NCBI RefSeq assembly: GCF_004570345.1
Contig: NZ_SPQM01000027.1
Span: forward strand, 1-41,992
Direction: 5' to 3'
Source: Blastococcus sp. CT_GayMR20
Lineage (GTDB): Bacteria > Actinomycetota > Actinomycetes > Mycobacteriales > Geodermatophilaceae
DNA length: 41,992 bases
Each line of letters opens with the position of its first letter. Positions within the stretch are counted from its first letter, which is position 1. A program made the translations under genes and the position numbers. Of this stretch, positions 5,103 through 13,719 are shown in pieces. The notes beneath the pieces are model-generated. The model made no database searches. It was not told the DNA's origin and worked only from the letters and a program-made list of their open reading frames with translations.

Positions 5103-6068
5103 CTACAGCGTGAAGACGATCTTGCCGGCGGTGCGGCCCTCGAGCATCCGCTCGAAGCCCTCGCGCGCCTGGGACAGCGGCAGCTCGACGTCGATCTCCG
5201 GCCGGATCCCGGTCACGCTGCACATCTGGATCAGCGACTCGAGCTCCGCCCGGGTGCCCATCGTCGAGCCGATGACGGACAGCTGGGTGAAGAACACCCG
5301 GTTGAGCTCGGCGCCGGGGTTGAAGCCGGTCGTCGCGCCGGAGGTGACCACGACGCCGCCGGGCTTGAGCGACTTGATGCTGTGCGACCAGGTGGCGTCG
5401 CCGACGGTCTCCATGACGCCGTCCACCCGCTCGGGCAGCCGCGCCCCGGTCTCGAACGCCTGCTCGGCACCGAGCGCGAGCGCGGCGGCGCGCTTCTCCT
5501 CGCTGCGCCCGGTCACCCACATCCGGTAGCCGGCGGCCCGCCCCAGCACGATCAGCGCGGTGGCGACGCCGCCGCTGGCGCCCTGCACGAGCACCGTCTG
5601 CCCGGGGCGCAGGCCCGACTTCACGAACAGCATCCGGTAGGCGGTCAGCCAGGCGGTGGGCAGGCAGGCGGCCTCGGCGAACGACAGCTCCGACGGCTTG
5701 GGCAGCAGGTTGCCCTTCGGGACGACGACCTTCTCGGCCATCGTCCCCTGGTGCAGCTCGGAGAACAGCGAGCGCTTCGGGTCCAGCGTCTCGTCTCCGG
5801 TCCACCCGGGGCTGGCGACGACGCCGTGGACGACGACCTCGTTGCCGTCGGGGTCGAGCCCGGCGGCGTCGGTGCCGAGGATCATCGGCATGCGCTCCTG
5901 CGGCAGGCCGATGCCCTGCAGGCTGAACAGGTCGTGGTGGTTCAGGGAGACCGCCTTGACCTCGACCGTCGTCCAGCCGTCGGGCGCCTCGGGCTCGGGC
6001 CGGTCACCGACCTCCAGGACTGACAGCGGGTCCTCGGGCGCAGGCGTCGATACGAAGGCGGCGAGCAT
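5103..6068 (-). CDS. Zinc-less MDR-family alcohol dehydrogenase/quinone oxidoreductase
   Basis: A 321-residue medium-chain reductase: an N-terminal GroES-like domain (about 25-130) followed by a Rossmann NAD(P)H-binding domain with GASGGVATALIVLGRAAG and the downstream VTGRSEEKRAAALALGA. The structural-zinc cysteine cluster of classic alcohol dehydrogenases is absent. There is no Shine-Dalgarno; instead TAGCTT, six bases, ATG gives a possible leaderless start in which the -10 begins with the UAG stop of selD. The gene ends in UAG. It is in the same frame as selD with only that UAG and three codons between. Substrate is unknown. Proximity to selD is conserved-looking but does not by itself imply a selenium role. 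Confidence 0.85.
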   Translation of the reverse strand: MLAAFVSTPAPEDPLSVLEVGDRPEPEAPDGWTTVEVKAVSLNHHDLFSLQGIGLPQERMPMILGTDAAGLDPDGNEVVVHGVVASPGWTGDETLDPKRSLFSELHQGTMAEKVVVPKGNLLPKPSELSFAEAACLPTAWLTAYRMLFVKSGLRPGQTVLVQGASGGVATALIVLGRAAGYRMWVTGRSEEKRAAALALGAEQAFETGARLPERVDGVMETVGDATWSHSIKSLKPGGVVVTSGATTGFNPGAELNRVFFTQLSVIGSTMGTRAELESLIQMCSVTGIRPEIDVELPLSQAREGFERMLEGRTAGKIVFTL

Positions 6069-6074
6069 GCAGGG

Positions 6075-6080
6075 AAGCTA
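6075..6080 (-). promoter_or_regulatory. possible -10 of the MDR gene, overlapping the selD stop
   Basis: TAGCTT on the minus strand followed by CCCTGC and the ATG at 6068. It matches the xAxxxT-N6-8-start pattern seen at several other genes here. The first three bases are the selD UAG stop codon. No clear -35. Confidence 0.4.
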
Positions 6081-7085
6081 ACGAACGATCACGACGGCGT
6101 CCTGCCGGGGTACCAACTCGCCGATCACCGGCGCCCCGGGGACCTCGCCGCCCAGCAGTAGTCCGCCGGAGGTCTGCGCGTCGGCGAGGAGCAGCGCCTC
6201 GTCCTCCGACACGGCCGACAGGTCGGTGTGCGGGCGCACCCAGTCGAGGTTGCGCCGTGTCCCGCCGGAGACGAAGCCGTCGGCCAGGGCCTCGCGCGCC
6301 CCCACCAGGTAGGGGACGGCGGCGGCGTCGACCACCGCCGTGACCCCGCTCGCGCGCGCCATCTTGTAGAGGTGGCCCAGCAGGCCGAAGCCGGTGACGT
6401 CGGTGCCGGCGCGGATCCCCGCGGCCACCGCTGCCCGGCCGGCCTCGCGGTTGAGCGCCGTCATCGAGGCGACCGCCTCCTCGGAGACCTCGCCCGTCGC
6501 CTTCATCCGGCTGTTGAGCACCCCGACGCCGAGCGGCTTGGTCAGCGACACCGCCGTCCCGGCGACGGCCGCGTCGTTGCGGATGATCCGGTCGAGGTCG
6601 ACCAGGCCGGTCACGGCCATGCCGTACTTGGGTTCGGGGTCGTCGATCGAGTGGCCGCCGCCGACGTGGCAGCCGGCCTCCTGGGCCACCTCGAGACCGC
6701 CGCGCAGCACCTCGGCGGCCAGCTCGGCGGGCAGCACGTCGCGGGGCCAGCCGAGCAGGTTCACGGCGACGACCGGGGTGCCGCCCATCGCGTAGACGTC
6801 CGACAGCGCGTTGGCGGCCGCGATCCGGCCGAAGGTGTACGCGTCGTCGACGACGGGGGTGAAGAAGTCGGTGGTGAGCACCAGCCCCTGGTTGCCGGCG
6901 ATGCGCACCACGGCCGCGTCGTCCCCGTCGTCCAGCCCGACCACCAGTTCGGCGTTGGGAGCAGCGGGACCGGTCGCGGTCAGGCCGGCCACCACCGCCT
7001 CGAGCTCGCCGGGTGGGATCTTGCAGGCACAGCCGCCGCCGTGTGCGAACTGGGTGAGGCGGATCCGGGCCGGTGCAGTCGTCAC
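6078..7085 (-). CDS. selD: Selenide, water dikinase (selenophosphate synthase)
   Basis: A 335-residue SelD: it makes selenophosphate from selenide and ATP, the selenium donor for SelA. The N-terminal catalytic loop reads HGGGCACK: Cys19 (TGT) aligns with the catalytic Cys/Sec17 and Lys22 with Lys20 of the E. coli enzyme (from memory), so this is the Cys form, not a selenoprotein. AIRS-type motifs follow: LVVGLDDGDDAAV, TTDFFTPVVDDAYTFG, GHSIDDPEPKYG and GTDVTGFGLLGH. The start is GTG 7085, seven bases after a TACCGT -10 (leaderless). It terminates with UAG, the codon its own tRNA-Sec should read. It lies 1.4 kb from tRNA-Sec, selA and selB on the opposite strand and completes that pathway. 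Confidence 0.96.
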   Translation of the reverse strand: MTTAPARIRLTQFAHGGGCACKIPPGELEAVVAGLTATGPAAPNAELVVGLDDGDDAAVVRIAGNQGLVLTTDFFTPVVDDAYTFGRIAAANALSDVYAMGGTPVVAVNLLGWPRDVLPAELAAEVLRGGLEVAQEAGCHVGGGHSIDDPEPKYGMAVTGLVDLDRIIRNDAAVAGTAVSLTKPLGVGVLNSRMKATGEVSEEAVASMTALNREAGRAAVAAGIRAGTDVTGFGLLGHLYKMARASGVTAVVDAAAVPYLVGAREALADGFVSGGTRRNLDWVRPHTDLSAVSEDEALLLADAQTSGGLLLGGEVPGAPVIGELVPRQDAVVIVR

Positions 7086-7092
7086 CCCGACG

Positions 7093-7098
7093 ACGGTA
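7093..7098 (-). promoter_or_regulatory. -10 element of selD (leaderless)
   Basis: TACCGT on the minus strand, seven bases before the GTG start at 7085; no Shine-Dalgarno is present. No convincing -35 was found. Confidence 0.5.
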
Positions 7099-7148
7099 GC
7101 CGCGCCGGCGGTGGCGCGTGATCATGAGCGGGTCCACGAGGAGGCCCC

Positions 7149-7733
7149 GTGCGCGTCCTGCTGCTCGCCGTCCTGCTGCTGCTCGCCGGCTGCTCGGGCC
7201 CGGATGCGGAGCCCGCAGCGACGGCGTCGTCCGCCTCCGCGGCGCCGGAAGGCTTCGACCAGGCACTGCACGACGAGTTGATCGCCATGCTCGAGCGCGA
7301 CCAGAGCGGCCGCACCGGCGGGTCGGACGCCGAGGGCGATGCCGCCCGGACGGAACGGATGAAGGAAATTCTCGCCGAGCACGGCTGGCCGACCTTCGAC
7401 CTCGTCGGGACGGACGGCGAGGACGCGGCGTGGGCGATCGTCCAGCACTCCGACCAGGACCCGGCCTTCCAGCGGGAGGCGCTCGAGCTGCTGCGCGCGG
7501 CGGTCGCTCAGGCGCAGGGCTCGCCGGGCAACCTCGCCTACCTCACCGACCGGATCGCGGCGGGCGCCGGCGAGCCGCAGACCTACGGCACCCAGGTCGG
7601 CTGCGGACCCGACGGGCCGGTGCCCGCGCCGCTCGCCGTCCCTTCCGCCGTCGACGCACGCCGCGCGGAGGTGGGGCTGGCACCGATGGCCGAGTACCTC
7701 GCCGAGATGGCGGCGATCTGCGCCGAGGACTGA
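7149..7733 (+). CDS. Secreted lipoprotein, DUF6624-like
   Basis: A 194-residue protein with a lipoprotein signal: MRVLLLAVLLLLAGCS, lipobox LAGC with Cys15 as the lipidation site, then a Ser/Ala-rich linker. The mature part contains ILAEHGWPTFDLVGTDG, AWAIVQHSDQDPAFQ, LAYLTDRIAAGAGEPQTYGT, a pattern I associate with DUF6624 (family call from memory). GTG start at 7149 with GAGGAGG four bases upstream. It sits between divergent selD and convergent WYL gene; nothing links it to selenium metabolism. Function is unknown; it is expected on the outer face of the membrane. Confidence 0.82.
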   Translation: MRVLLLAVLLLLAGCSGPDAEPAATASSASAAPEGFDQALHDELIAMLERDQSGRTGGSDAEGDAARTERMKEILAEHGWPTFDLVGTDGEDAAWAIVQHSDQDPAFQREALELLRAAVAQAQGSPGNLAYLTDRIAAGAGEPQTYGTQVGCGPDGPVPAPLAVPSAVDARRAEVGLAPMAEYLAEMAAICAED

Positions 7734-7796
7734 GAAAGGACCCGCCTGCCCCCCCCGCTCGCACGCTCGCCGCGGGCCTCTGCAGGAGAGCCACGC

Positions 7797-8381
7797 TCAG
7801 AGGCGCCCTCCGGGCAGGACGACGAGCCGCGGTGCCTTCGCCGCCGGTGCCGCCGTCCGGCCGAGCGCCCGCCCGGCGGGGTGCCCGTCGGCCGGAGGGG
7901 TGCCGAAGTCGGTGAGGTCCCGCCGCGGCGCCGTCTCGGAGGTGAGCTCGACGCTCTCGATGCGGTCCTCGCGGAACCAGCGCATCGCATCCCGCTCGCG
8001 GCACCACGCGACCAGGAACCAGTGCCGGCCGCTCTTGGCCAGCAGCTGCGGCTCGACCTCGCGACGGGAGGTCGTGCCCTTGCTGTCCCGGTACCGGACC
8101 ACCAGCACGCGGCGGCGCGTCACCGCCTGCTCGACGACCGACCGGATCTCCGCGGAGTGACCGGCCTCCGCACTGACCCACAGGCTGGTCGCCAGCAGCT
8201 GGGACCGGCGACCCGGGTCGGGCTCGAGTGCGCCGAGGACCTTCTCCAGGGCCGACCGCCCGTCCGCGCTGAACGGGCCGTCCGGCTGAGCGGCGAGCGC
8301 CACCGCGACCGCCGCTGCCTCCTCGGGCGTGAGGGTGACCGGCGGCAGCGTGGCGGCGGGGCGGGGCTCGGTGCGGGTCAT
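7797..8381 (-). CDS. WYL-domain protein lacking an HTH
   Basis: A 194-residue protein consisting of the middle linker (VTLTPEEAAAVAVALAA …) and the WYL ligand-sensing domain (VVRYRDSKGTTSRREVEPQLL, then RHWFLVAWCRERDAMRWF; the W-Y-L triad appears as W-F-L). Typical WYL regulators are about 320 residues with an N-terminal DeoR-type HTH; here that part is absent and no HTH-like open frame is visible immediately upstream. The promoter region is shared back-to-back with tRNA-Sec. The start ATG at 8381 has no Shine-Dalgarno but has ACCAT six bases upstream. It may be a remnant or a partner-dependent sensor. Confidence 0.85.
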   Translation of the reverse strand: MTRTEPRPAATLPPVTLTPEEAAAVAVALAAQPDGPFSADGRSALEKVLGALEPDPGRRSQLLATSLWVSAEAGHSAEIRSVVEQAVTRRRVLVVRYRDSKGTTSRREVEPQLLAKSGRHWFLVAWCRERDAMRWFREDRIESVELTSETAPRRDLTDFGTPPADGHPAGRALGRTAAPAAKAPRLVVLPGGRL

Positions 8382-8432
8382 GCGGGGATGGTGACGAGCC
8401 CCTCTGACAGTTTCTGCGGAGCGCCCGCCACG

Positions 8433-8438
8433 TAGGCT
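8433..8438 (+). promoter_or_regulatory. -10 element of tRNA-Sec
   Basis: TAGGCT ends seven bases before the first base of tRNA-Sec (8446), so the primary transcript may begin at or within a base of the mature 5' end. The only -35-like hexamer (CTGACA, 8404-8409) is 23 bases away, too far for a standard promoter. Confidence 0.45.
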
Positions 8439-8445
8439 GCCGGAC

Positions 8446-8541
8446 GGAGGCGTCAGGGTGTCTGGTGACCCCCGCGGCCTCTAAAGCCGACGTGGCCGAG
8501 CAGCTCGGTCAGGCGGGTTCGATTCCCGTCCGCCTCCGCCA
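8446..8541 (+). tRNA. selC: tRNA-Sec with anticodon CUA (decodes UAG)
   Basis: 96 bases with selenocysteine-tRNA architecture. Acceptor 8446-8453/8530-8537: seven perfect pairs, and the eighth (T8453/C8530) mismatched; G73 at 8538; CCA encoded at 8539-8541. Long D stem 8456-8462/8467-8473 with one T/C mismatch and a 4-base loop TGGT (E. coli has CGGT, from memory). Anticodon stem C8475-C8478/G8486-G8489 closes the loop CTCTAAA (8479-8485): U33 is 8480 and the anticodon is 8481-8483, CTA. The E. coli loop is CTTCAAA, so the loop is conserved apart from the anticodon. Variable arm: TGGCCGAG / CTCGGTCA, 8 bp (one G·U), loop CAG. T arm 8513-8529 with TTCGATT. It lies 41 bases upstream of selA. 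Confidence 0.96.
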
Positions 8542-8567
8542 TCCCGCCTCGTCGCCCGGGCGCCGCC

Positions 8568-8573
8568 TACGCT
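8568..8573 (+). promoter_or_regulatory. possible -10 of selA (leaderless)
   Basis: TACGCT followed by eight bases and the selA ATG. No Shine-Dalgarno precedes selA, so a leaderless transcript separate from tRNA-Sec is plausible. No clear -35. Confidence 0.4.
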
Positions 8574-8581
8574 GAGTAGCG

Positions 8582-9889
8582 ATGAGCGATCCCCGCCGGC
8601 AGGTGCCCCGCACCGACACCCTGCTCGCCGACCCGCAACTCGCGGCCGCCGGCGAGCGGCTCGGCCTCGGCCTGGTGAAGGACGTCGTCCAGCGCGTGCA
8701 GCAGCGCATCCGTGACGGCGAGGTCTCCCCGCCCCACGCGGTGGACGCCGTCCTCGCCGCGCTCCCGAGCACGGCGAGCAGCCTGCGGCCCGTCCTGAAC
8801 GCGACCGGCGTGCTGGTGCACACCAACCTCGGCCGGTCGCCACTGTCCGCGGCCGCCGTCGAGGCCGTGGTCGCGGCGAGCGGCACGACCGACGTCGAGC
8901 TCGACCTGGCCACCGGCCGGCGCGGCCCCCGCGGGGAGGCGGCGATCGCCGCGCTCCTGGCCGCCGTCCCGGCCGCCGAGGCGGCGATCGTGGTCAACAA
9001 CTGCGCGGCGGCCCTCGCCCTGGTCGCGACCGTGCTCGGTCAGGGGCGCGAGCTCGTCCTCGCTCGCGGTGAGCTGGTCGAGATCGGCGACGGCTTCCGC
9101 ATCCCCGACCTGCTCGTCTCCACCGGCGCCCGCCTGCACGAGGTCGGGACGACCAACCGGGTCACGCTCGCCGACTACCGCGGCGCCCTGGGCCCGGAGA
9201 CCGGCGCCGTCCTCAAGGTGCACCCGTCGAACTTCGTCGTCCGCGGTTTCACCCGGGAGGTCGATGTCGCCGACCTGGCAGGAGCGCTCGACGGCACCGG
9301 CACCCCACTGGTCGCCGACATCGGGTCCGGGCTCCTCCAGCCGCATCCGCGGCTCCCCGAGGAGCCGGACGCGCAGGGCACCCTCGCGGCGGGCGCCGAC
9401 CTGGTCCTGGCGAGCGGGGACAAGCTGCTCGGGGGACCGCAGGCCGGCCTGGTCCTGGGCCGGGCAGAGCTCGTCCAGCGTCTCCGCCGGCACCCGCTGT
9501 ACCGGGCGCTGCGGGTCGACAAGACGACGCTCGCCGCGCTCGAGGCCACGCTGCGCGGGCCGCTGGCGCCCGTCCAGGAGATGCTCGCCGCAGATGTCGA
9601 CGGCCTTCGGGTGCGTGCCCGCAGGCTGGCCGCCCATCTGGCAGCGCAGGGTGTCGACGCCGCGGCCGTCGACGCCGAGGCGCGGGTCGGCGGGGGAGGG
9701 GCGCCTGAGCACCCGCTGCCCAGCGCGGCCGTCTCGCTGCCCGCCTCCTTCGCCGAACCCCTGCGGCGGGGCGCCCCGCCGGTCGTCGGCTACCTGGACG
9801 GCGACCGCACGCTGCTGAACCTGCGCAGCCTCCTGCCCTCGGCGGACGACGACCTCGCCGCGGCCGTGCTGGCGGTCGCCGCGCAGTGA
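8582..9889 (+). CDS. selA: L-seryl-tRNA(Sec) selenium transferase
   Basis: A 435-residue PLP enzyme that converts Ser-tRNA(Sec) to Sec-tRNA(Sec) with selenophosphate from SelD. The PLP lysine is Lys281 in ASGDKLLGGPQAG. Other family landmarks: LRPVLNATGVLVHTNLGRSP, VNNCAAALAL, ARGELVEIGDGFRIPD, LHEVGTTNR, KVHPSNFVVRGF and IGSGLL. The N-terminal tRNA-binding domain (residues 1-70) is present, so this is the decameric bacterial type rather than an archaeal SelA-like truncation. The stop overlaps the upstream-most start of selB (GTGA). It should act on the CUA-anticodon tRNA directly upstream; SelA recognises the body of the tRNA, not the anticodon, so a changed anticodon need not impair it (family knowledge). 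Confidence 0.97.
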   Translation: MSDPRRQVPRTDTLLADPQLAAAGERLGLGLVKDVVQRVQQRIRDGEVSPPHAVDAVLAALPSTASSLRPVLNATGVLVHTNLGRSPLSAAAVEAVVAASGTTDVELDLATGRRGPRGEAAIAALLAAVPAAEAAIVVNNCAAALALVATVLGQGRELVLARGELVEIGDGFRIPDLLVSTGARLHEVGTTNRVTLADYRGALGPETGAVLKVHPSNFVVRGFTREVDVADLAGALDGTGTPLVADIGSGLLQPHPRLPEEPDAQGTLAAGADLVLASGDKLLGGPQAGLVLGRAELVQRLRRHPLYRALRVDKTTLAALEATLRGPLAPVQEMLAADVDGLRVRARRLAAHLAAQGVDAAAVDAEARVGGGGAPEHPLPSAAVSLPASFAEPLRRGAPPVVGYLDGDRTLLNLRSLLPSADDDLAAAVLAVAAQ

Positions 9890-11640
9890 GCTCCATGCAC
9901 GTGATCGCCACCGCCGGCCACGTCGACCACGGCAAGTCGGCCCTGGTACGAGCGCTCACCGGGATGGAGCCCGACCGCTGGGCCGAGGAGCGCCGCCGGG
10001 GCCTCACCATCGACCTCGGCTTCGCCTGGACGACGCTGCCGTCGGGACGACGGATCGCGGTGGTCGACGTCCCCGGGCACGAGCGGTTCGTCGGCAACAT
10101 GCTGGCCGGCGTCGGGTCGGTGCCGGCGGCGCTGCTCGTGGTCGCCGCGGACGACGGCTGGTCGGCCCAGACCGCCGAGCACGTGGCCGTCCTCGACGCC
10201 CTCGGGGTCCGGCACGCCCTGCTCGCGGTGAGCAAGGCCGACCTCGCCGACCCGGACCCCGTGCTGGCCGACGTCGGGGAGAGGCTCCGCCGCACGTCCA
10301 TGGGCGACGTCCCGGGGATGGCGGTGAGTGCCCTCACCGGTGCCGGCCTGCCCGATCTGACCGCGGGTCTCGAGCAGCTCCTGGCCGGCCTGCCGTCCCC
10401 GGACCCGGCCGCACCGGTGCGGCTCTGGATCGACCGCGCCTTCACCATCCGCGGCGCGGGCACCGTGGTCACCGGCACGCTCGCCGCGGGCGCCGTCGAC
10501 GGCGAGGACCGGCTGCAGCTCGGCGACCGCAAGGTGGTGGTGCGCGGGGTGCAGTCGCTCGGCGAGCCGGTCGACCGCGCCGTCGCGACCGCGCGGGTGG
10601 CCCTCAACCTGCGCGGCGTCGCCGTCGAGGACCTCTCGCGGGGGGACGCCCTGCTGACGCCCGGCGCGTTCCGCTCCACCGCCACCGTCGACGTCACCCT
10701 GGCCCGCGCACCGGAGGACCGGCTGCCCGCGGAGGCGGTGGTGCACGTCGGCTCGGCCACGGTGGGCGCCCGCGTCCGGCCGCTGGACGGGACGGTCGTC
10801 CGGCTCCGGCTGAACGCGCCGCTGCCCCTGCGGATCGGCGACCGGCTGCTGCTGCGCGACCCCGGCACCCGCCGGGTGCTCGGCGCCGACGTGCGGGACG
10901 TCGACCCGCCGGAGCTCCGCCGTCGGGGCGCGGCCCGGCAGCGGGCCGCCGAGCTCGCCGCCCAGCCCCATGGCACCGCCGGTGCCGCGGCCGATCTCGC
11001 CCGGCGGAGAGTCGTGCGGGCCGGGGATTTCGCCGCCATGGGCTGGCCGGTGCCGCCCGGGGCCACCCTGCACGGCCCGTGGCTGATGGCCGGCGGGCTG
11101 GCCGACGAGCTCGCCGGCCGCGTGCCGGACGTCGTCGTGCGTTTCCGCAGGCTGCGGCCGCTCGAGCCGGGCCCGCCGGTGGAGGTCGTGCGCCGGGCGC
11201 TCGACCTGCCGGACGCCGACCTGGTGGCCGGCGTCGTCCGGCCGCCGCTCGTGCTGCGGGACGGCCGCGTGGTCCACGCGGCGGCGGAACTGCCGCCGCA
11301 GGTCCAGCGTGCGGTGGACGACGTCCGCGCCCGGCTGGCCGGGGACCCGTTCGCCGCACCCGAGGCAGGAGACCTCCAGGCCGCGGGCCTCGGCCCGCGC
11401 GAGCTGGCGGCGGCGGTGCGCAGCGGCCAGTTGGTGCGGATCGCCGGCGGCGTCCACCTCGCCCCCGGCGTGGCCGAGGAGGCGCGGAAGCGGCTGGTCC
11501 CCCTCGACCAGCCGTTCAGCGTGAGCCAGGCGCGCCGGGCCTGGGGAACCAGCCGCCGGGTCGCCGTGCCGCTGATGGAATGGCTCGACGCCCAGGGTGT
11601 GACAGTCCGGCTGCCGGACAACACCCGCCGCCTGCGCTGA
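9886..11640 (+). CDS. selB: Selenocysteine-specific elongation factor
   Basis: A 584-residue translational GTPase delivering Sec-tRNA to the ribosome at a SECIS-marked codon. G motifs: GHVDHGKS (G1), RRGLTIDLGFAW (G2, the SelB signature), DVPGHERF (G3), SKAD (G4, usually TKAD). EF-Tu-like beta-barrel domains follow (AFTIRGAGTVVTGTLAAG), then a C-terminal winged-helix region (about 400-584) that in SelB binds the SECIS hairpin. Start: GTG 9886 overlaps the selA stop; ATG 9895 (MHVIATAGHVDHGK) also fits the family and may be the true start. A degenerate second copy of its last 14 codons lies at 11885-11928. No selenoprotein gene is visible in this window. Confidence 0.96.
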   Translation: MSSMHVIATAGHVDHGKSALVRALTGMEPDRWAEERRRGLTIDLGFAWTTLPSGRRIAVVDVPGHERFVGNMLAGVGSVPAALLVVAADDGWSAQTAEHVAVLDALGVRHALLAVSKADLADPDPVLADVGERLRRTSMGDVPGMAVSALTGAGLPDLTAGLEQLLAGLPSPDPAAPVRLWIDRAFTIRGAGTVVTGTLAAGAVDGEDRLQLGDRKVVVRGVQSLGEPVDRAVATARVALNLRGVAVEDLSRGDALLTPGAFRSTATVDVTLARAPEDRLPAEAVVHVGSATVGARVRPLDGTVVRLRLNAPLPLRIGDRLLLRDPGTRRVLGADVRDVDPPELRRRGAARQRAAELAAQPHGTAGAAADLARRRVVRAGDFAAMGWPVPPGATLHGPWLMAGGLADELAGRVPDVVVRFRRLRPLEPGPPVEVVRRALDLPDADLVAGVVRPPLVLRDGRVVHAAAELPPQVQRAVDDVRARLAGDPFAAPEAGDLQAAGLGPRELAAAVRSGQLVRIAGGVHLAPGVAEEARKRLVPLDQPFSVSQARRAWGTSRRVAVPLMEWLDAQGVTVRLPDNTRRLR

Positions 11641-11833: not shown

Positions 11834-12099
11834 GTCCTGTGGGTGGCGCCCCCTCTCCCCGGTCGCCGGTCGGTACCCAGCGGGGGCGTGAGGGTACGGC
11901 TGCCCGGACAACATCCGTCGACTCCGCCTTGCTTGCGGGGCTCGTCTGAGCAGCCCCGCGACGGAGCCGTGGGTCATCCCTTGGAGTGCCCTGAGCCGCC
12001 CAGCTGCTGACACGCTGCGCATCGGGAGGGTTACTTACTGTGCAGCTCGGCCACGGGGTCAGCGCGATTCCTCACGAACGCGGAAGAACAGGTCACGCA
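11834..12099. other. intergenic region, mostly without identifiable genes
   Basis: Between the toxin-antitoxin scar and the protease. It holds the degenerate selB tail (listed separately). GGGAGGG at 12024-12030 precedes a GTG at 12040 that is an alternative start of the protease. I see no other gene. Confidence 0.5.
11885..11928 (+). pseudogene. degenerate duplicate of the selB 3' end
   Basis: Aligns with 11596-11637, the last codons of selB: both read G-V-x-V-R-L-P, then D-N-x-R-R-L-R, with one extra C in the relic (CTGCCCGGAC versus CTGCCGGAC) shifting the frame. I count about 36 identities over 45 aligned positions by eye. Several differences are at third codon positions. It is separated from selB by the yefM-yoeB scar. 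Confidence 0.7.
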
Positions 12100-13719
12100 A
12101 TGTCACCAGGATTCGGATCCTCGCCCAGGCGCGGACGCACGAGCAAGCGCATGCTCCGCGGCGTCGCCGTCTCGACGTTGGGTGCCCTGCTCGCCGGCTC
12201 CGGGCTCGGTGTCGCCCACGCCGAGGTGGACCCTGCGCTGGGCTACGACGCGATCGCGAACAAGGGTTCCCTGTTCAACATCGCCGAAGTCGTCGGCGCC
12301 CACGACGCCTACCGCAAGGGGCTCACGGGCAAGGGCGTCGGCGTGGCGCTGATCGACACCGGCGTCGCCCCTGTGCCCGGCCTGACGAGCGGCAACGTCG
12401 TCAACGGACCGGACCTGTCGTTCGACAGCCAGCTGGACGGGATGGCGCATCTCGACGCCTTCGGCCACGGCACCCACATGGCGTCGATCATCGCCGGCCG
12501 GGATGCCGCGGGGACTCCGTCGTCCTACCTCGACCCCGGCCGCTTCACCGGGATCGCGCCCGACGCCACCCTGGTGAACGTCAAGGTCGGGGCGAGCAAC
12601 GGGGCGGTGGACGTCACCCAGGTCATCGCGGCCATCGACTGGGTCGTCGAGCACGCGAAGGACCCAGGGCTCAACATCCGCGTGATCACGCTGGCCTACG
12701 GCACCGACTCGTTGCAGAGCAGCACGGTCGACCCCCTCGCCTACGCCGTCGAGAACGCCTGGAGGAAGGGCATCGTCGTCGTCGCCGCGGGCGGGAACGA
12801 CGGCCGGCCGGACAAGACGCTGGCAAACCCGGCCTACGACCCGCACGTGCTCGCCGTCGGCGCGATGGACAGTGCCGGCACGGTGAGCTCCTCCGACGAC
12901 ACCGTCCCGAACTGGTCGACGCGGGGCACCGATGCCCGGCACGTCGACGTCGTCGCCCCTGGCGTCTCGGTGCTCGGGCTGCGCGTGCCCGGTGGCGTGT
13001 CGGACTCGAACAACCCGCAGGCCCGGGTCGGGGAACGGTTCGCACGCGCCTCGGGCACGTCGCAGGCAACCGCCGTCGCCGCCGGTGAGGCGGCGCTGAT
13101 CCTGCAGAAGTACCCCTGGCTCGCACCGGACCAGGTGAAGCAGCTGATGACGACCACCGCCAGCGGCATCCTCTCCTCGCTGCCGATCTTGAGCGGCAGC
13201 GGTCTGGTCAACCTCCGGGCGGTGCTGTTCAACCCCGTCAACTCCCTCCTTGGAACCGTCGGCGGGCTGCTGGACTCCCTCGGCACCAAGCGCTGGGGGT
13301 CGGGCACGGGTTCGCTGGAGAAGGCGCGCGGCAGCTTCCACGTGGGCGCGGGTGCGACGGAGCTCCGGGGCGAGATCGACATCTTCGGCCGTGCCTGGAG
13401 CGGCTACACCTGGACGCGGCAGGCCTCCGGCGGCTCCGTCTGGAACTACGGCGCCTGGCTCGGGCAGCGCATGACCGGCGACGGCTGGCAGGACCACAGC
13501 TGGCCGACCGCCTCCTGGCCCGCCACCGACTGGACCGGCGCCAGCTGGACTGCCGACGCCTGGTCGGCGAAGACGTGGAGCAACGGGTCGTGGTCGGCGA
13601 AGACGTGGAGCGGCGACACGTGGTCGGCGAAGACGTGGAGCGGCGACACGTGGTCGGCGAAGACGTGGAGCGGCGACACGTGGTCGGCCAAGACCTGGAG
13701 CAGCGAGAACTGGTCGTGA
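12100..13719 (+). CDS. Secreted subtilisin-like (S8) serine protease with Trp-pentad tail
   Basis: A 539-residue secreted protease. A signal peptide (basic RRGRTSKRMLRG, hydrophobic VAVSTLGALLAGSGLGVA, cleavage near AHA-EV) precedes the S8 domain. The catalytic triad is visible: Asp86 (ALIDTG), His123 (GHGTHMAS), Ser321 (SGTSQA), with oxyanion Asn233 (AAGGND). After about residue 430 the chain becomes a low-complexity tail in which Trp recurs every five residues, ending in near-identical WSAKTWSGDT decads. Start ATG 12100 was chosen for the signal peptide; GTG 12040, with GGGAGGG upstream, would add 20 residues. An 18-bp hairpin terminator follows. The Trp tail may bind cell wall or carbohydrate, but this is inference. 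Confidence 0.9.
   Translation: MSPGFGSSPRRGRTSKRMLRGVAVSTLGALLAGSGLGVAHAEVDPALGYDAIANKGSLFNIAEVVGAHDAYRKGLTGKGVGVALIDTGVAPVPGLTSGNVVNGPDLSFDSQLDGMAHLDAFGHGTHMASIIAGRDAAGTPSSYLDPGRFTGIAPDATLVNVKVGASNGAVDVTQVIAAIDWVVEHAKDPGLNIRVITLAYGTDSLQSSTVDPLAYAVENAWRKGIVVVAAGGNDGRPDKTLANPAYDPHVLAVGAMDSAGTVSSSDDTVPNWSTRGTDARHVDVVAPGVSVLGLRVPGGVSDSNNPQARVGERFARASGTSQATAVAAGEAALILQKYPWLAPDQVKQLMTTTASGILSSLPILSGSGLVNLRAVLFNPVNSLLGTVGGLLDSLGTKRWGSGTGSLEKARGSFHVGAGATELRGEIDIFGRAWSGYTWTRQASGGSVWNYGAWLGQRMTGDGWQDHSWPTASWPATDWTGASWTADAWSAKTWSNGSWSAKTWSGDTWSAKTWSGDTWSAKTWSGDTWSAKTWSSENWS
13561..13710 (+). repeat. 30-bp tandem repeat in the protease gene
   Basis: Five consecutive 30-base units, each encoding ten residues (WSAKTW plus four variable residues). 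Units 2, 3 and 4 (13591-13680) are identical at the DNA level; units 1 and 5 have diverged. The identity suggests recent expansion and likely length variation between strains. Confidence 0.95.

Follow-up and report, generated by a model that had tools for sequence, protein, structure and literature searches.

Canonical bacterial selenocysteine tRNA (tRNA-Sec; Rfam RF01852) has the anticodon UCA, a U-A pair at positions 31 and 39, and UGA as its codon. Pyrrolysine tRNA (tRNA-Pyl) has a CUA anticodon in common with the tRNA-Sec described here but differs from it in fold and charging enzyme and operates without SelB or a SECIS element. Insertion of selenocysteine (Sec) at UAG was reportedly demonstrated for Geodermatophilus and Blastococcus by Mukai et al. 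in 2016 (Angew Chem 55:5337), by 75Se labelling or mass spectrometry. As far as the accessible text of Santesmasses et al. 2017 (PMC5330540) goes, CUA tRNA-Sec genes are described from three Geodermatophilaceae genomes, and the accessible text of PMC10778597 lists UAG, UAA, and ten sense codons as used for Sec in some species. We analyzed 41,992 nucleotides of Blastococcus sp. CT_GayMR20 (contig NZ_SPQM01000027.1), referred to here as the window, which carries a tRNA-Sec gene with a CUA anticodon. The window is a further case of the published Geodermatophilaceae switch to UAG. It does not differ in kind from the system in the accessible text of PMC5330540, with which it shares the family, the anticodon, and, in its relatives, UAG at the Sec sites of formate dehydrogenase (FDH), UGSC, and AhpC genes; the census grows from three genomes to 101 of 112, and lineages with a UCA tRNA-Sec bracket the switch. 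The bracketing within the family and a genome that carries both tRNAs are the newer points.

The window encodes a tRNA-Sec with a CUA anticodon beside selA, selB, and selD

ARAGORN found a single tRNA gene in the window, at 8446..8541 on the forward strand, with the anticodon cta. The gene matches the tRNA-Sec covariance model RF01852 over its full length (model positions 1 to 91) at 66.8 bits, against a gathering threshold of 47, and this was the sole Rfam family above threshold in the window. The initial annotation had placed CTA at tRNA positions 34 to 36, in the loop CTCTAAA, and had proposed running such a model and reading the anticodon. The anticodon read is CUA, and both ARAGORN (position 36 of the gene) and the sequence put it at 8481..8483 (forward strand). 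Also borne out from the sequence are the 4-base D loop (TGGT) and the long variable arm (8493..8511, forward strand), in which 8493-8500 pairs with 8504-8511 as an 8-bp stem around a 3-base loop. The "8+5" acceptor/T stack claimed at the same time holds in part, since, toward its inner end, the acceptor helix has non-standard appositions in the Rfam alignment; the Geodermatophilaceae copies that were read out have the same bases there. The 3' end, GCCA, is encoded. A long variable arm, G73, and a small D loop thus mark the gene as tRNA-Sec. It resembles the canonical bacterial form in its fold, its variable arm, and its selA, selB, and selD neighbors and differs from it in having CUA for UCA, C-G for U-A at 31-39, and UAG for UGA as its predicted codon.

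The three neighbors lie within 5.6 kb (6078-11640), as first annotated, and each matches its NCBIfam model above the cut-off. On the reverse strand, selD (6078..7085; TIGR00476, 386 bits, cut-off 125) encodes selenophosphate synthetase in the Cys form, with the motif GGGCACK. On the forward strand, selA (8582..9889; TIGR00474, 425 bits, cut-off 267.9) encodes L-seryl-tRNA(Sec) selenium transferase and overlaps by 4 bases with selB (9886..11640; TIGR00475, 291 bits, cut-off 242.25), which encodes the Sec-specific elongation factor. Given the adjacent selA, the tRNA is predicted to receive Ser, which SelA would then turn into Sec.

ARAGORN labels the gene tRNA-Pyl because its anticodon is CUA, and the accessible part of PMC3639795 has Geodermatophilus obscurus in a table of possible pyrrolysine users, where its Infernal mark is qualified and the entry reads "No UAG-anticodon." That the gene encodes a tRNA for pyrrolysine, or some other amber suppressor, nevertheless has a negligible probability. 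Rfam identifies it as tRNA-Sec, it lacks the fold of tRNA-Pyl, it is flanked by selA, selB, and selD, and the in-frame TAGs of relatives fall on Sec/Cys sites and are followed by a SECIS-type hairpin. For practical purposes, the pyrrolysine reading is refuted.

No selenoprotein gene turned up in the window, either in a scan for TAG or TGA codons accompanied by a SECIS-type hairpin or by tblastn with FDH, UGSC, and AhpC queries, so the UAG-containing partner of the tRNA is inferred from relatives. Taking the locus and its relatives together, the comparison makes it very likely that the window tRNA-Sec inserts Sec at UAG codons that have a SECIS hairpin, while other UAGs terminate. By the established steps of bacterial Sec biology, SerRS would charge the tRNA with serine, SelA would exchange the serine for selenium from the selenophosphate supplied by SelD, and SelB would bring the Sec-tRNA to the hairpin, the loop of which would lie about 20 bases behind the codon. 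The CUA anticodon would pair with UAG in competition with RF1.

CUA tRNA-Sec is found across the Geodermatophilaceae

Loci of relatives were taken as the best 80 of 476 matches to the window SelA in public genomes. Among these 80, a cta tRNA-Sec is present in all 35 Geodermatophilaceae loci, which come from Blastococcus, Geodermatophilus, Modestobacter, Klenkia, Goekera, and Trujillonella, two being without a genus. Since every one of the 35 has this tRNA with the same loop, the window gene is not a chance occurrence. The other 45 loci have a tca tRNA-Sec in 33 cases and no tRNA-Sec by ARAGORN in 12. One locus (L002) is labelled "UNVERIFIED_ORG: Bacillus sp. AZ43"; its SelA (87% to the window) and its CUA tRNA-Sec place it in the Geodermatophilaceae.

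The family set comprised the 112 genomes grouped with G001 and was searched with a pattern that admits several anticodons and that an unlike UCA tRNA could escape. Matches were obtained in 108 genomes, 101 of them with CUA and 7 with UCA only (G068, G070, G071, G072, G074, G075, and G076); G069, G073, G098, and G099 gave no match. The initial annotation had cited the recoding from Geodermatophilus and Blastococcus. It is indeed known in the family, in the accessible text of PMC5330540, and the 101 CUA genomes show it spread across the family, beyond those two genera.

A second tRNA-Sec with UCA had been named as evidence that would count against the UAG reading, and a search for one was run in the relatives. 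A UCA copy accompanies the CUA copy in 1 of the 101 CUA genomes, G061 (Geodermatophilus sp. LHW52908), and is absent from the rest by the pattern. G061, which carries both, is a precedent for supposing that the strain of the window has a further UCA tRNA-Sec and reads both UAG and UGA as Sec. With just one such genome in 101, and allowing that the pattern could miss an unlike UCA tRNA, we regard this as very improbable. UAG exclusivity cannot be assumed, however, because G061 also has a UCA tRNA-Sec.

Among 397 genomes drawn from the order, a pattern admitting CUA or UUA (CTYTAAA) matched 76, of which 75 belong to the family set and the remaining one is G231; every one reads CTCTAAA, and thus no UUA intermediate was found in these 397 genomes. 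As a CUA case outside the family, G231 was rejected, and its assembly is taken to be contaminated. A UCA tRNA-Sec of its own is present, each of its two FDH genes has a single in-frame TGA, and its HemW is outgroup-like (62%). The CUA copy is located on a 4.8-kb contig (C194, locus L192), where SelA and SelD are Geodermatophilaceae-like.

Several other candidates were set aside. Ten pattern matches fell in viral contigs, in which ARAGORN found no tRNA-Sec. One viral contig (L209) has ten tRNA genes, including two short ones with the anticodon CTA (7640-7717 and 8355-8431), which points to a phage that suppresses amber codons and has no relation to tRNA-Sec. A second RF01852 match over the cut-off occurred in 6 of the 9 genomes examined; the one that was read out (L090) is a tRNA-Ser, as is L261 in G231. 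Elsewhere, sel genes with a UCA tRNA-Sec were observed on plasmids. An Arthrobacter plasmid typed as conjugative (L276, NZ_CP110115.1) carries selA, selB, tRNA-Sec, and selD beside formate dehydrogenase genes, and a Tsukamurella plasmid (L277, NZ_LR134459.1) has the same whole kit, likewise beside formate dehydrogenase genes.

Selenoprotein genes of the relatives have TAG at the Sec site

A 367-residue formate dehydrogenase piece that includes the Sec site (P0001) matched 125 places in 101 of the 112 family genomes. The Sec site is covered by 118 of these matches, in 98 genomes, and each has one in-frame stop, which is TAG in all 118 and TGA in none. Together with the CUA anticodon in the family, this supports the central claim of the initial annotation, that Sec is inserted at UAG. 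The seven matches without the Sec site are four pieces of two deleted copies in G080, one of them with two TGAs, and three matches cut by contig ends (G039, G097, and one in G099). G098 and G099 gave no tRNA-Sec pattern match and yet are among the genomes with a TAG FDH. In the 30 FDH loci read out (L091-L120), the context is ENQARI-TAG-H in 29, the 30th being a deleted G080 copy. In an alignment with 6sdr, a solved formate dehydrogenase, the residue encoded by this TAG falls on the X that denotes Sec.

UGSC genes were found at 95 places in 54 of the 112 genomes, 72 with one TAG, 23 free of stops, and none with TGA; at the UGSC position of 30 loci read out, the codon is TAG in 22 and TGC in 8. 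For AhpC-TSA, 86 places were found at E up to 1e-8 in 15 chosen genomes, two of them UCA genomes. Five of these places have one TAG, as GDW-TAG-PYC, and the other 81 have no stop. FDH, UGSC, and AhpC with Sec-TAG are all named in the accessible text of PMC5330540 and are therefore not new families.

In G080, the FDH copies at C4:1820-2819 and C12:814491-815382, both on the reverse strand (L121, L122, and L104), have lost the Sec codon and the hairpin stretch. The left ends of the two deletions differ, the right end is the same, and the tRNA-Sec is retained; the deletions may be a real loss or an assembly artefact. L104, which was the only match with a single TGA among the matches listed, was rejected as a TGA FDH, the TGA being an artefact of the deletion and a frameshift over the Sec site.

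UAG is still an ordinary stop in CUA genomes

If every UAG in the CUA genomes were read as Sec, TAG should not close genes there, and it does. By our own gene calls, TAG ends 62 of 419 genes (14.8%) in the 35 CUA-clade loci and 107 of 502 in the 45 other actinobacterial loci. The terminator is thus somewhat rarer in the CUA clade, as wholesale reassignment would have it (Fisher p 0.013, an optimistic value because the loci share ancestry). Genes that themselves have a Sec-TAG also use it as a terminator. Among the 53 with a readable end, 8 terminate in TAG (1 of 28 FDH, 5 of 22 UGSC, and 2 of 3 AhpC-like genes); 3 further genes ran off the locus and are outside the 53. UAG is still an ordinary stop in these genomes, and wholesale reassignment is highly unlikely.

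The initial annotation had also counted 37 UGA and 7 UAG among the stops of 44 genes in the window and had argued that moving Sec to UAG lowers conflict with ordinary stops. The direction of the count was reproduced, though not its exact figures, a stricter gene picker giving 19 TGA and 6 TAG in 25 genes. TGA ends 84.5% of genes in the CUA loci versus 75.7% in the 45 others. UGA crowding as the driver of the move is possible but not demonstrated, because the loci of relatives with a UCA tRNA-Sec (33 of the 45) are UGA-crowded as well, TGA ending 76% of genes in those 45 loci.

In formate dehydrogenase genes, the SECIS-type loop is equally spaced from UAG and from UGA

In FDH genes, the Sec codon is followed by a 7-bp stem around GGTCT, which occupies positions 22-26 counted from the T of TAG. 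In a set of 18 distinct sequences drawn from CUA genomes alone, which leaves aside the 4 UGA sequences, 99.2% of cells are paired, and none of the 500 shuffles and none of the slides reaches the covariation score (0.353). Two pairs have changes on both sides, a number that shuffles also give. Single-sequence folding is weakly better than that of shuffles (z from -1.9 to -0.3), and RNAfold favors an overlapping stem in 11 of 22 UGSC sequences and 2 of 4 UGA sequences. UGSC genes have AGTGT or AGTCT at the place of the hairpin loop, and in AhpC-like genes the loop is GGTCC and lies two bases later.

The same GGTCT, identically placed, occurs in the four UGA FDH sequences of other lineages. With the spacing from codon to GGTCT equal for UAG in CUA genomes and for UGA in UCA relatives, the SECIS side appears unaltered. 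From these alignments, it is likely that SECIS recognition was kept and that the codon alone moved.

The switch is bracketed by UCA lineages within the family

In the seven family genomes with UCA only, the tRNA bodies are close to those of the CUA group. From these tRNAs to that of the window, U34 becomes C, C35 becomes U, and the 31-39 pair changes from U-A to C-G. Loci were fetched from the nine genomes G068-G076 (L154-L159, L161, L191, and L193-L195), seven of which have the UCA tRNA-Sec. P0001 has no FDH match in these nine at E up to 1e-40, the assemblies being small (2.4-3.7 Mb). Four non-CUA family genomes (G072, G074, G076, and G073) have an FDH that belongs to a different subtype and carries TGA at the Sec site (SCNRT-TGA-HAPSVVGL); the G074 copy shifts frame further on. 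G073, which gave no tRNA-Sec match, groups with the UCA lineages in HemW.

The CUA genomes form one clade in trees of SelA (18 rows, 100/100), SelB (16 rows, 100/100), and HemW (10 rows, 99/98), and the window falls inside this Geodermatophilaceae clade with the same support in each. The SelA and SelB trees comprised 45 and 41 rows, respectively, selected from those available. The UCA lineages lie outside the CUA clade, as two groups in the HemW tree and, in the SelB tree, beside Saccharopolyspora (98/92) and away from the CUA clade. Holding the CUA and UCA lineages together was not rejected (p-AU 0.27 for SelB and 0.11 for HemW), and the Sec system of the UCA lineages may be the direct sister of that of the CUA clade. 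SelB identity between the CUA clade and the others is below that among the others in all three parts of the protein, with no focus in a single domain.

Because the CUA genomes are one clade with the UCA lineages outside it, the simplest reading, and a likely one, is that the switch took place once, on the branch leading to the Blastococcus/Geodermatophilus/Modestobacter/Klenkia group. The survey turns a report from a few genomes into a bracketed event, with UCA and UGA on one side and CUA and UAG on the other, in one family and with the SECIS apparently unchanged. This bracketing makes the order of steps directly testable, both whether the tRNA or the genes changed first and whether the path ran via UUA/UAA or via CCA/UGG.

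One Geodermatophilus genome carries both a CUA and a UCA tRNA-Sec

In Geodermatophilus sp. LHW52908 (G061), contig C11 is identical to locus L011 over 17,260 bases. The second tRNA-Sec of this genome lies on another contig, the 69-kb C17 (L264:1169-1263, reverse strand); it has the anticodon UCA, scores 81.8 bits, and has GCCA encoded. About 300 bases from it is a gene for an AhpD/CMD-type peroxidase (L264:1579-2157, forward strand; PF02627; TIGR01926, 112.6 bits, cut-off 81.8), with an in-frame TGA at a CxxU site, RCFY-TGA-MESH. Among 12 aligned relatives (120 listed), this column holds Cys in 8 and Trp in 4, and all four with Trp are among the five nearest. Trp here is most simply explained by source gene calls that used a code with TGA as Trp. 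The hairpin after the TGA, ACGCAG-AGTTT-CTGCGT, is no better than many shuffles (z -0.5). No selA, selB, or selD is present on C17.

The tRNA and the peroxidase gene lie on an island with a broken DDE transposase gene toward the contig start; on its far side, IS110, rve, and IstB/IS21 genes follow within 14 kb. The GC content is about 61% at 1001-5500 of C17 and 73-79% from 15 kb on. In 4-mer distance to three pieces of other G061 contigs, the first 14 kb is at 0.21-0.30 and the rest is at 0.11-0.18. Because the rest of the contig is close to G061 in 4-mers and its first part deviates in 4-mers and GC content, C17 is most likely G061's own contig carrying a foreign island.

A tentative reading of this arrangement, to which we give slightly less than an even chance, is that LHW52908 uses two Sec codons. 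UAG would be the resident one, and UGA would serve a laterally acquired AhpD-like peroxidase that came with its own UCA tRNA-Sec on the low-GC island between transposase genes and relies on the SelA, SelB, and SelD of its host. If so, a selenoprotein gene and its tRNA would form a mobile unit that brings its own codon assignment into a differently coded cell, and a Sec codon would be importable by horizontal transfer. Eight bacterial genomes with two tRNA-Sec genes are mentioned in the accessible text of PMC5330540. In the open-licence PMC literature, as far as its accessible text goes, we came across no genome described as having UCA and CUA tRNA-Sec together.

Other features of the window

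The stop codon of selD is TAG, and the neighboring gene at 5103-6068 is in the same frame. A readthrough fusion of the two was considered and dropped; the copy in L192 has both genes in different frames, and the shared frame in the window is likely chance. Downstream of selB, a long open reading frame at 12040-13719 resembles a putative subtilisin-type protease and has WSAKTWSGDTW-like repeats at its C terminus.
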